A DNA stretch of 64,000 nt from Bryobacteraceae bacterium (GTDB lineage Bacteria > Acidobacteriota > Terriglobia > Bryobacterales > Bryobacteraceae), in assembly GCA_025980665.1 (NCBI GenBank), contig JAICXC010000008.1, positions 1 to 64,000 of the forward strand. Direction: 5' to 3'. Below, one piece after another: positions 37,989 to 43,484 of the stretch (within the stretch, counting starts at the first letter, position 1; each line of letters begins with the position of its first letter). A model generated the notes under the pieces. It did no database searches. It had not been told where the DNA came from and saw nothing but the letters and a program-made list of their open reading frames with translations. The translations under genes and the position numbers were made by a program.

Positions 37989-38010
37989 ACTATTTTTTGG
38001 ACTATTTTTT
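37989..38010 (+). repeat. Tandem ACTATTTTTT pair between convergent genes
   Basis: ACTATTTTTT at 37989-37998 and 38001-38010, a 12-base period. The second copy lies in the final codons of the convergent YggX gene, so these T-runs could help end RidA transcripts without an obvious stem. Confidence 0.5.
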
Positions 38011-38331
38011 TGCTTGGGGCGGAACGAAACCGGGCGGAAGCGCGGCGCCTTCTCCAAAGAAGTACTCTTCCATTTGTTTGAGCAGGAACTCCTGCGCTTC
38101 TTGGGTGCCCAGGTTGAGGCGGTACTCGTTCATGATCATCTTCATCTGCTCAATCCACATCTTCCAGGCTTCTTTCGACACGTTCTCGAAGATGCGTTCG
38201 CCAAGAGGATTGTCGAAAGGCGCCTCATCCAGACCGGGCATCTCGCGCTGAAACTTGACGCACATCACCTTGCGCCCGGTCTTGTTGCCTTCCTCGAAGC
38301 GCGGATCTGGTATGCTGCTACCGCAACTCAT
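38002..38331 (-). CDS. Fe(II)-trafficking / oxidative-damage protection protein, YggX-like
   Basis: 109 residues. CVKFQREMPGLDEAPF, NPLGERIFENVSKEAWKMWIEQMKMIMNEYRLNL and LKQMEEYFFGEG fit the YggX family, including the conserved Cys near the start. The AGAGGA site supports ATG 38331, which adds about 22 residues (SCGSSIPDPRFEE...) to the usual size; ATG 38265 would give a normal-length 87-residue form. Confidence 0.85.
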   Translation of the reverse strand: MSCGSSIPDPRFEEGNKTGRKVMCVKFQREMPGLDEAPFDNPLGERIFENVSKEAWKMWIEQMKMIMNEYRLNLGTQEAQEFLLKQMEEYFFGEGAALPPGFVPPQAKK

Positions 38332-39556: not shown

Positions 39557-40915
39557 TCAGCCGGCTAAAGTGATGTAGCGAAGGCCGGCCCGCGTGATGC
39601 GTCCTCGATCGAAGGCGTGGCGTGTGTCCAGCAGAATGGGCGTTCGCATCACCGACGCGAGCGATTCCCAATCCAGGTCCAGATATTGCGGCCATTCCGT
39701 GATCAAGACGACTGCATCCGTATCGCGAGCCACTTCATGCACATCGCTGGCCATGACAACGTCCATGCCGGCATGCTCCTTCTTGAACCGGTTCATGGCG
39801 ACGGGATCGTGCACCTTCACACGGGCGCCGCGTTCCAGGAGATGGCGTGCGACGTCCAGGGCGGGAGCTTCCCGCAGATCGTCGGTGTGCGGCTTGAACG
39901 CCAGGCCCAACAGGCCGATGGTACGCCCTTTGAGAATTTTGAGCTCGCCCAAGAGTTTTTCGACCACGCGTTCCCTTTGACGCCGGTTGACGTCGCGAGC
40001 GGCCTTCACAATGGACATGTCCAGCCCGTATTCGGACGCCGTGGACACCAGTGCGGCCGTGTCCTTTCCGAAGCACGACCCTCCCCACCCGATGCCGGCC
40101 TGCAAAAAGCGTGTGCCGATACGGGCATCCAGGCCGATGCCGCGCGCCACTTGCGAGATATCGGCGCCCACTTTTTCGGCCAGCTGCCCGATTTCATTGA
40201 TGTAACTGATCTTGAGCGCCAAAAATGCGTTGGCCGCGTACTTGATCAATTCGGCGGAAGCGAGATCGGTGGAGATAAGCGGTACGCCGCCCACACGATC
40301 GGGTCGGGGCAGAAAAGCTGGCGGCTGGAAAGTCTGGTCCAGAATTGGACGGTACAAGGTATAGAGAACCTCGGCCGTCCGAGGATCGTCGGCTCCGATC
40401 ACCACGCGGTCGGGATACAAGCTGTCGAGAAGTGCGCTGCCTTCGCGTAGAAACTCTGGATTCGAAGCCACGGCGAAACAATCTTTGCCGCGCCCGCGGC
40501 GTTCGGCGGCATCGCGCACCAGCGCCCCCACCCAATTACCGCTTCCAATGGGCACAGTGGACTTGTTCACGATCACCGTGAAATGAGGTCCCAAACGCTC
40601 GCCTACGCCCTCGGCCGCCGCTTGCAGATAGCGCAGATCGGGCGCGCCTCCCACACCGGGGGGCGTGCCGACCGCAATGAACACCACTTGGGAATCCGGG
40701 ATGGCCTCCGAATAATCCATGGTGAATTTTAAGTTCGGACGGGCCGCCACCAATAGGTCCTCTAAGTGGGGTTCGTGGAAGGGAACCTCGCCACGTTGTA
40801 GCGCACCGATCTTATTCGCGTCGGGATCGACGCAAGTGACCTGATGACCAAGATAAGCAAGACAGGCACCGGTGGTTAACCCGACATACCCTGTTCCTAG
40901 GATCGCGACGTTCAT
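39557..40915 (-). CDS. ugd: UDP-glucose 6-dehydrogenase
   Basis: 452 residues. N-terminal NAD fold GTGYVGLTTGACLAYLGH (7-24), catalytic region with NPEFLREGSALLDSLYPDRVVIG (~153-175), nucleophile cysteine in GIGWGGSCFGKDT (~277) and C-terminal UDP-binding domain. Makes UDP-glucuronate for envelope glycans. It follows the ATP-grasp gene after a seven-base gap, so it may be co-transcribed. Confidence 0.96.
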   Translation of the reverse strand: MNVAILGTGYVGLTTGACLAYLGHQVTCVDPDANKIGALQRGEVPFHEPHLEDLLVAARPNLKFTMDYSEAIPDSQVVFIAVGTPPGVGGAPDLRYLQAAAEGVGERLGPHFTVIVNKSTVPIGSGNWVGALVRDAAERRGRGKDCFAVASNPEFLREGSALLDSLYPDRVVIGADDPRTAEVLYTLYRPILDQTFQPPAFLPRPDRVGGVPLISTDLASAELIKYAANAFLALKISYINEIGQLAEKVGADISQVARGIGLDARIGTRFLQAGIGWGGSCFGKDTAALVSTASEYGLDMSIVKAARDVNRRQRERVVEKLLGELKILKGRTIGLLGLAFKPHTDDLREAPALDVARHLLERGARVKVHDPVAMNRFKKEHAGMDVVMASDVHEVARDTDAVVLITEWPQYLDLDWESLASVMRTPILLDTRHAFDRGRITRAGLRYITLAG

Positions 40916-40922
40916 GAGTCTC

Positions 40923-42137
40923 CTATTTTACGATTGGAAGGGCGGCGGAAAAATCAAACTTTAAGCGCTGATGTACTTCCCGCAGAGCCTTTGGTACTAG
41001 ATCGGCGGATTTACCTCGAAAGAACAGGAAACCCAAGTACGAAGATCCCTCAGGCAGTGGAACCGTTTCCTGGCCCTCCTTGGCCGTAATAACGATGTCT
41101 TCCACTCCGGGGATCCGGCGGGCAGCCTCTAGCCCATGAACCCCACGGTACACCCCCGACTGCGGGATTGGGATCATCATCACCCCGTGGCCACCGGCCG
41201 CCAGTTTTGCATTTGAAACATCTTCACCCAGGGCATGCCGGAGCAGGAGCTGTTCGAGTGTACTATAGGGAGCTTCGAAGCGCACTACACGGGCGCACAG
41301 TCCGCCGATCGGACGGGGCGCCGCCTCGAGGATCCAGACGCCCCGGTCGTTGACCCGCATTTCCGCGTGCACGGGGCCGTTCGTCATTCCCAGCGCCGTT
41401 ATCGCCGCCTGCGCGGTATCCCGGATGCGGTCCTGAACATCCGCGGGCTCGCTGGAGGGTGTGACGTAGATGGTCTCTTCGAAGTAGGGGCCTTCCAGGG
41501 GGTCGGGTTTGTCGAACACTACCAGCGTCTGGAGCTTTCCATCGGTGACCACGCCTTCCAGAGCGAACTCGCGACCTGGAATGTAGTCTTCGACAATTAA
41601 ATCGCCGTCCTGCATGCGGGCGATGCGCACAGCCGCTTGGACGAACTCCTCGCGGTTATTAGCGCGGATGACGCCCCGGCTGGCAGAGGAATCGAGCGGC
41701 TTAAGAACGCAGGGAAACCGGACATCTGCGAGGGAGGTACCCGAACGCGCCTCGGCGAACGGCAGCCGCCGAAACTCCGGAACCAGCATCCCGCCCGCGC
41801 GGAAACGCCCTCGTGCCAGAAGCTTGTTCGACGCTGCGCGAGCCGATTCGGCGGGATGAAAGCGAAGCCCCAATCGTTCGGCCGCCTGTGCCGCTACGCA
41901 CGCCGGACGGTCGCCCACCCCGAGGATTCCATCAAACGGCCCGAGTGTGGCGAGAGCCTGTATGCCTGGCCCGGGATCCTCGAAACGAACCGGGGCGGCA
42001 TGGTCGCCCCACGGATTTTCCATGATGTGGCAGCGGTCCGTTGCTAATACCAGTTCGACATCGAGTTCGCGGGCGGCCGTGGCAAATTCGCGCACCTGAT
42101 ATCCGGTGGTAGAGGCAACCAATAAGACCCGCTTCAT
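40923..42137 (-). CDS. ATP-grasp ligase with L-amino-acid-ligase-type C-terminus
   Basis: 404 residues. N-terminal preATP-grasp fold (1-100), ATP-grasp domain (about 105-300; VRFPCVLKPLDSSASRGVIRANN, GDLIVEDYIPGREFALEGVV, ILEAAPRPIGG for metal/ATP binding) and a C-terminal domain (GVMMIPIPQSGVYRGVHGLEAARRIPGVEDI) resembling the LAL_C2 domain of L-amino-acid ligases such as BacD. It would join two carboxylate/amine substrates through an acylphosphate. It lies three bases after the radical SAM gene and shares its operon. Confidence 0.85.
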   Translation of the reverse strand: MKRVLLVASTTGYQVREFATAARELDVELVLATDRCHIMENPWGDHAAPVRFEDPGPGIQALATLGPFDGILGVGDRPACVAAQAAERLGLRFHPAESARAASNKLLARGRFRAGGMLVPEFRRLPFAEARSGTSLADVRFPCVLKPLDSSASRGVIRANNREEFVQAAVRIARMQDGDLIVEDYIPGREFALEGVVTDGKLQTLVVFDKPDPLEGPYFEETIYVTPSSEPADVQDRIRDTAQAAITALGMTNGPVHAEMRVNDRGVWILEAAPRPIGGLCARVVRFEAPYSTLEQLLLRHALGEDVSNAKLAAGGHGVMMIPIPQSGVYRGVHGLEAARRIPGVEDIVITAKEGQETVPLPEGSSYLGFLFFRGKSADLVPKALREVHQRLKFDFSAALPIVK

Positions 42138-42140
42138 GCT

Positions 42141-43484
42141 CTAGACTTGTGGCGCAGGTTCGGCGCAGCAGTACCAGGGTTCGTCGAGATGCGGAACCGT
42201 AGCCTGTGGGCGCAGGCCAGGGGCCGGAGTCTGCAAAACCAGCTCCCAGATTTCGCCGAAGATCTGCGCGCGCGTTTTGTTCTCCGCCTGGCGACGGCTC
42301 ACGAGCTGGAACACCAGGTTGGCCAGTGTATCGACATCCCGATTCGAATGTTTCCAGGGATATACCAAGGCCTTTTCGTCAAATGGGCCGATCACCGGCT
42401 GAATGTCCGGCAAATCCAGCAGGCGCGACTTTTGCGTAATCAGCAAGCGCAATGCGAGTTGAACAGGCGCAGTATTCTCGACAAGCTCCAGTTCCGCCAG
42501 CGCGCGTAACAAGCAGCCGTAACTCTCAATGGTCGTCCACGGCATGAAGGCGATGAAAGTGGGTTGGAGTGAGAGCCCGATCTCGCGCAGGGACGTGGTG
42601 ACTTCGTAAAAATCCTGACGTGTGTGACCTTTTTCCAAAAGACTGAGGACGGAATCGTCGATGGATTCAACTGCACTGGTGATAAACAGGCAGCCGGTCT
42701 GCTTCAGCGCCGGAAGCAGGTCGCGATGCTGCTTGAGATGTTCGATTTTGATCGTGGCGTCATAGCTAATTTCGGGAAATTCAGCGTGGAACGCTTCCAC
42801 GATACGCATCGCGTGGGTGGGACCGTTGAAAAAATCGGGATCGCCGAAGGTGATGTGGCGCGCACCCGCCGCCACCTGTTGTCGGATGTCTTCGAGCACC
42901 ACATCGCGCTGCACCACGCGAAACTGCCCTTCGTATACCGGAACCACCGGACAGTGGCGGCAAAGATGTTTGCAGCCGCGGCTGGCTTCCGTGTATCCAG
43001 CCGTGGTTTTCGTTCCATTCTGCCGAAGATGAGAATACAACTCCAGACCGGGCAGACCTCGGCGGTCCGGTGTCAGGAACGAGAGCTTCTCGATGCTCCT
43101 GGAGGCGCCTTTTAAGGCGGCATTGCCGCCGTTGGCAAGATCGACCAGCGCTGCTTCAAACTCCCCGCCGATGACGGCTTCGATACCCAGCCCGCGCAGC
43201 AGGTCGGCATTCAGGGGTGCGTACAGGCCATAACAAGCCAGGCGCGCGCGTGGGTTCATTCGCCTTATTTGCTCGATCACCGGCATCGCCAGCCGCGTCG
43301 CGGTATGCATCGGCAGATAGAAGGCGACCAAGTCCGCGGCTCGGATCGCGGCTTCGTCGAGCGAACTCACGGACAGATCCAGGCACACGACGCCGTGACC
43401 GTCGCGCGCTAGCCAGGCGGTGGGCGAGCTCAATCCGAAGGGCTGGTGGCCGAGCTCGTAGGTGGAAATAAGAACAACGTTCAC
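42141..43484 (-). CDS. CCAEP-tail radical SAM protein
   Basis: 447 residues. The N-terminal part (1-115) has the Rossmann pattern of B12-binding-like domains but lacks DxHxxG. The radical SAM centre is C171-x3-C175-x2-C178 (GCKHLCRHCPV). The protein ends YCCAEPAPQV, so C439-C440-A-E-P: the tail that names the CUAEP/CCAEP-tail radical SAM family, where some members have selenocysteine in place of the second cysteine. Here both codons are TGC. GTG 43484, 14 bases after the ComEA-like stop, begins the conserved domain. Function unknown. Confidence 0.85.
   Translation of the reverse strand: MNVVLISTYELGHQPFGLSSPTAWLARDGHGVVCLDLSVSSLDEAAIRAADLVAFYLPMHTATRLAMPVIEQIRRMNPRARLACYGLYAPLNADLLRGLGIEAVIGGEFEAALVDLANGGNAALKGASRSIEKLSFLTPDRRGLPGLELYSHLRQNGTKTTAGYTEASRGCKHLCRHCPVVPVYEGQFRVVQRDVVLEDIRQQVAAGARHITFGDPDFFNGPTHAMRIVEAFHAEFPEISYDATIKIEHLKQHRDLLPALKQTGCLFITSAVESIDDSVLSLLEKGHTRQDFYEVTTSLREIGLSLQPTFIAFMPWTTIESYGCLLRALAELELVENTAPVQLALRLLITQKSRLLDLPDIQPVIGPFDEKALVYPWKHSNRDVDTLANLVFQLVSRRQAENKTRAQIFGEIWELVLQTPAPGLRPQATVPHLDEPWYCCAEPAPQV

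Follow-up and report, generated by a model that had tools for sequence, protein, structure and literature searches.

What does a radical SAM enzyme whose chain ends in Cys-Cys-Ala-Glu-Pro do together with the ATP-grasp enzyme encoded directly behind it? The question is raised by a 64,000-nucleotide stretch from the genome of a soil bacterium of the Bryobacteraceae (the window), in which the radical SAM gene begins with GTG at 43484 and stops at 42141, its product ending ...DEPWYCCAEPAPQV, the ATP-grasp gene follows after three bases, and a UDP-glucose dehydrogenase gene starts seven bases past that, at 40915 (Table 1). The initial annotation had given both spacings, the CCAEP end, the CxxxCxxC motif and a LAL_C2-like end of the ATP-grasp protein, and each of these proved exact or was borne out by a profile match. 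It had gone on to propose that the two enzymes may assemble and modify a small product derived from amino acids, with the Cys-Cys tail as a metal or persulfide site.

Table 1. Coordinates of the gene pair, its motifs and a nearby iron-trafficking gene in the window.
Feature	Position	Strand	Details and basis
CCAEP-tail radical SAM protein	42141..43484	(-)	447 aa; Cys form of CUAEP/CCAEP (seleno)protein family NF040546
CKHLCRHC = CxxxCxxC (C171, C175, C178)	42951..42974	(-)	[4Fe-4S] cluster motif; sequence reading
Cys-Cys-Ala-Glu-Pro tail (C439-P443)	42156..42170	(-)	proposed substrate-holding site; sequence and alignments
LAL-type ATP-grasp ligase	40923..42137	(-)	404 aa; Pfam domains, fold 3vot, co-occurrence
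LAL_C2 (ligase residues 321-395)	40953..41177	(-)	PF18603, 54.8 bits, cut-off 29.4
YggX gene	38002-38331	same as pair	about 3.8 kb away

Score, motif and tail all mark the radical SAM protein as a true member of the CUAEP/CCAEP-tail family: in a profile search it matches NF040546 over nearly its full length with 607.5 bits (curated cut-off 500). Its nearest relatives, at 83-87% identity, come from metagenome-assembled genomes (MAGs) of Terriglobia/Bryobacterales (Acidobacteriota). NF040546 is a family without assigned function, and a literature search on CUAEP/CCAEP found no mention of it. An alignment of 58 relatives shows the CxxxCxxC motif, the Cys-Cys/Sec-Ala-Glu-Pro tail and the E435, P436 and W437 that immediately precede it to be invariant, and since the tail residues are conserved to this extent the CCAEP motif has not arisen by chance.

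In most relatives the second Cys of the tail is replaced by a TGA codon, followed by Ala-Glu-Pro and, shortly downstream, by an ordinary stop. The selenocysteine synthase SelA was present in every one of the 45 TGA-form genomes sampled versus five of the 11 Cys-form genomes (Fisher 1.4e-5; counts tallied by hand from result lists), and it was not found in the genome of the window (89% complete), where the CCAEP gene is of the Cys form. Taken together, these distributions lead us to conclude that the TGA in the tail of the relatives almost certainly encodes selenocysteine and that the window carries the Cys version.

The AlphaFold model of the radical SAM protein (pLDDT 94) has AprD4 as its closest solved fold (Z 28.7, rmsd 3.4, 401 residues), followed by MgmA (Z 26.7), with OxsB and TsrM also matching. 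Over most of its length the model combines an N-terminal B12-binding-like domain with a radical SAM barrel, a predicted architecture held in common with the cobalamin-dependent (class B) enzymes MgmA, OxsB and TsrM. However, alignment places STYELG.QPFG near the position where class B enzymes carry DxHxxG, and the match to the B12-binding domain PF02310 (29.3 bits) lies below the Pfam cut-off of 32.1. The enzyme may bind B12 in the base-off/His-off manner.

A kinship that the initial annotation did not contain emerged from comparison with other families. The second-best family for the window protein is ArsL (NF040542, 250 bits), the next reaching 44 bits; this lies below the curated ArsL cut-off of 450, as do the scores of CUAEP proteins from other families (up to 348 bits). 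When plasmids were searched, one CUAEP protein came first and the nearest relatives after it were all ArsL/RCCLKC-tail proteins (30-33% identity, 387 residues). An alignment of 109 CUAEP with four ArsL sequences gave 52 positions that vary little or not at all in either family, among them D215/D217, H249, E273, R346, the terminal Cys-Cys (C439, C440) and a [YF]E.G.QP motif that is N-terminal, near the place of DxHxxG in B12 enzymes. In phylogenies ArsL forms one clade, grouping with CUAEP proteins against the remaining radical SAM proteins encoded in the genome, in a tree where the outgroups are long branches and CUAEP monophyly itself is weakly supported. On sequence grounds, then, ArsL is the closest characterised relative of the family.

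ArsL, the radical SAM enzyme of the biosynthesis of the arsenic antibiotic arsinothricin, transfers the 3-amino-3-carboxypropyl group of SAM to arsenite. In Escherichia coli it makes hydroxyarsinothricin from As(III) (PMC8552651). The window protein has in common with it the radical SAM core, the N-terminal [YF]E.G.QP and the C-terminal vicinal Cys-Cys, but no more than about 31% of residues are identical, and outside the Cys-Cys the tails differ (RCCLKC versus CCAEPAPQV), both of which speak against an ArsL-like mode of action. Moreover, ArsL is found in ars-type loci with ArsM, ArsR and transporters, whereas CUAEP loci are without recurrent arsM, arsQ or arsR. We do not class the window protein as ArsL, because score, tail and gene context all depart from those of that family; by analogy, it may well work like ArsL.

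Besides LAL_C2, the partner ligase contains ATP-grasp_4 (104.7 bits, above the Pfam cut-off); its closest solved structure by sequence, aligned over most of its length, is BL00235 (3vot, E-value 8.8e-29), and the same L-amino acid ligase is the closest fold (Z 39.2, rmsd 2.9, 382 residues; runner-up Z 32). The catalytic acid and arginine residues of ATP-grasp enzymes are retained: E259, E271 and R275 align with residues of 3vot and are invariant in 29 relatives. Domains and fold are thus those of the L-amino acid ligases BL00235, BacD and RizA, but identity to these is 23%, no NCBIfam equivalog scored at or above its cut-off, and the window ligase belongs to a deep lineage of its own, the ligase partners of CUAEP proteins forming a single lineage with support of 99/98. 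This enzyme is of the LAL type and, going by its family, would form dipeptides. Selenocysteine in the ligase was also considered and rejected, as the TGA codons that were checked lie at the C-terminal end, past the conserved part.

Are the two genes neighbours by accident? Among 396 Acidobacteriota genomes, 63 carry both, 326 neither, two the radical SAM gene only (71% and 74% complete) and five the ligase only, one by a weak match of 235 bits (Fisher 1.7e-64, a value inflated by the relatedness of the genomes). Within one family, represented by at least 43 genomes, the identical four carry both (chance about 8e-6). A survey of the window together with 80 loci of named genomes found the ATP-grasp gene to be the sole broadly recurrent neighbour, present in 47 loci, always on the same strand and at a median of four bases downstream of the radical SAM gene. 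In a wider set of 124 loci, all with a sufficient length of sequence downstream, the ligase is adjacent (same strand, within 2 kb) in 60, far from the complete lack of adjacency in relatives that the initial annotation had named as fatal to its proposal. Adjacency is also not essential: where 20 genomes had no clear adjacent ligase, it was found elsewhere or displaced in 18, and in Methylomirabilota and Chloroflexi MAGs, which have the pair too, the genes are often apart. The radical SAM protein and the ligase are an obligate pair, and since they are co-inherited even without adjacency, this is strong evidence for one pathway; very probably they jointly make one small molecule. As far as a literature search shows, an obligate ligase partner for the CUAEP/CCAEP family is new.

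Three cases count against a two-gene pathway or lack the partner. In Nonomuraea candida the CCAEP radical SAM gene stands without a ligase anywhere in the genome, the ligase was not found in one further MAG among the 20 genomes, and none was found on the CUAEP-bearing replicon of Thermomicrobium roseum, the first and last being the cases that weigh against the model. In N. candida (locus L105:10001-12479) a methyltransferase gene lies 16 bases after the radical SAM gene, and the end product there is possibly different.

The same survey bears on the gene that follows the pair in the window. Together with UDP-glucose dehydrogenase, the two enzymes could belong to a polysaccharide pathway, for example one in which a uronic acid is decorated with an amino acid, a reading suggested by the seven-base spacing in the window and the closeness of that gene in the nearest relatives. 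However, UDP-glucose dehydrogenase is a neighbour in only eight loci including the window, all from the nearest clade, as against 60 of 124 for the ligase, which is by contrast co-inherited across the phylum; we reject the dehydrogenase as a pathway member, and the survey has very nearly refuted this explanation. Two further candidates were also rejected: a helix-hairpin-helix (ComEA-like) gene 13 bases upstream, detected in only two other loci, and an aminotransferase, which occurs at variable distances and whose proteins are 25-36% alike between lineages. A search of neighbours for recurrent ATP-grasp, transporter or precursor genes, as the initial annotation had advised, has yielded the first of these, and the CUAEP loci surveyed showed no general transporter or precursor-peptide gene. 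A gene for a POT-type oligopeptide transporter, named by sequence, does occur in 16 loci (L111, L150, L153, L156, L160, L164-L167, L172, L174, L178, L182, L185, L188, L189), in most directly flanking the radical SAM gene; it is possible that it exports or imports the product of the pair.

Four things were observed: to which families the proteins belong, that the two genes are an obligate pair, that the radical SAM protein has a core in common with ArsL, and that the ligase fold is intact. From these we infer a reaction, an acceptor and a product. First, the radical SAM enzyme would, in the manner of ArsL, cleave SAM to a 3-amino-3-carboxypropyl radical and add this group to a thiophilic acceptor, most likely trivalent arsenic, on the vicinal Cys-Cys (or Cys-Sec) of the tail, giving a glutamate-like non-protein amino acid derived from the aminobutyrate moiety of SAM. 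Second, the LAL-type ligase would use ATP to join this new amino acid to another amino acid, as expected from its family, yielding a dipeptide as a small peptide natural product. To this two-enzyme pathway as a whole we give a little less than an even chance. It accords in part with the product class first proposed for the locus, in favour of which there are now co-occurrence, ArsL kinship and an L-amino acid ligase fold. As to the tail, nothing was found for a persulfide; a site for a thiophilic element would fit the Cys-Cys signature of arsinothricin loci, and by analogy the CC/CU tail is perhaps a holder of a thiophilic substrate, perhaps As(III).

That signature, and a parallel to the pairing, come from plasmids. 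Five of six ArsL plasmid loci (L128, L129, L131, L190 and L191, from Priestia, Alicyclobacillus, Klebsiella and two Pantoea) have a LAL-like ATP-grasp gene near arsL, while the Pseudomonas amygdali locus is without one. Scores of these ATP-grasps against a profile of CUAEP partners are at or below those of other LALs, and in the tree they constitute a separate lineage, which lends no support to common ancestry of the ligases in the two systems; therefore LAL-like ligases appear to have been taken up independently by these two related families of radical SAM enzymes, in a convergent pairing, and as the ligases are not sister lineages the two systems may differ in the class of their product. The plasmid ATP-grasps suggest peptide forms of arsinothricin; a literature search for arsinothricin together with ATP-grasp found none. 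Vicinal Cys-Cys near a terminus (no more than 12 residues from the C-terminal or 15 from the N-terminal end) occurs in 20 of 70 listed gene products from the ArsL loci and one control locus: ArsL, ArsM (NCCSAEP, NCCAP...), MarR regulators, small proteins and even the ligases of the Klebsiella and P. agglomerans loci, which themselves end in Cys-Cys. Around CUAEP loci the figure is seven of 1355 neighbouring open reading frames, a set that includes spurious ones and in which the scan covered just the C-terminus. We infer that terminal Cys-Cys marks proteins which bind trivalent arsenicals or pass them on.

The gene context of CUAEP loci speaks against arsenic as the acceptor: no arsR, arsB, arsN1 or arsQ homologue was found near them, and arsM-like or arsC-like matches are isolated. 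This absence would suit a pathway resembling that of pyrrolysine, in which a radical SAM enzyme is likewise followed by an ATP-grasp ligase. An ordinary 5'-deoxyadenosyl radical would then remodel an amino acid, the ligase would join the new amino acid to another one, and the tail would be a redox or cluster-protecting device and not an acceptor site; the closest folds of the radical SAM model, AprD4 and MgmA, use 5'-deoxyadenosyl chemistry. PylB and PylC resemble the window pair as a biosynthetic couple, but both proteins are from other families: the sequence kinship of the radical SAM protein is with ArsL, not PylB, the window ligase scores 20.4 bits against a PylC cut-off of 248.3, and the radical SAM protein has its terminal vicinal Cys-Cys in common with ArsL and with arsenic-handling neighbours. 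We regard this pathway as rather unlikely, though it is the strongest competitor.

A second alternative keeps ArsL-type transfer and exchanges the acceptor, for selenide, tellurite, antimonite, mercury or a protein or peptide thiol, the peptide then serving detoxification or storage rather than warfare. A chromosomal location without ars genes would be in keeping with this, as would the selenocysteine in the tail of most relatives indicated by the SelA counts. Among the selenoproteins predicted for mercury and metalloids there are some with Cys-Sec or Sec-Cys motifs (PMC13188914). On the other hand, no gene for handling mercury, selenium or antimony was recognised as a recurrent neighbour of CUAEP loci, and we consider another acceptor improbable.

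Returning to the aminocarboxypropyl transfer that we favour, its boldest form would be a widespread chromosomal two-gene route to a peptide-linked, SAM-derived organoarsenic or organometalloid amino acid, in most cases with a selenocysteine tail holding the metalloid. In this full form the proposal is doubtful, if well short of fanciful. Were it true, soil bacteria would make organometalloid natural products much more often than one would gather from the small number of arsinothricin loci known, the presence of selenocysteine in such a tail would be explained, and the very small group of radical SAM enzymes with aminocarboxypropyl transfer activity (Dph2, ArsL) would gain a member. A minimal two-enzyme route of this chemistry would exist in a notable share of Acidobacteriota and reach other phyla. 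A named but functionless (seleno)protein family is meanwhile provided with a constant partner, with a relative that has been characterised and with a reaction that can be put to the test.

Several smaller observations concern the surroundings of the pair. One CUAEP relative (locus L186) is without a recognisable tail, ending SSWLCFESSSRLG..., and a homologue of arsinothricin-type ArsM (201 bits) lies in the same locus. Proteins named by sequence as NifU-like or HesB/IscA-like iron-sulfur proteins adjoin the pair in some lineages (loci L133, L134, L136, L137, L138 and L054). A gene for the Fe(2+)-trafficking protein YggX (PF04362) is found in 66 of 139 CUAEP loci from several families (e.g. L079), where it directly follows the ligase gene, in most cases on the other strand; the window has one as well (Table 1).
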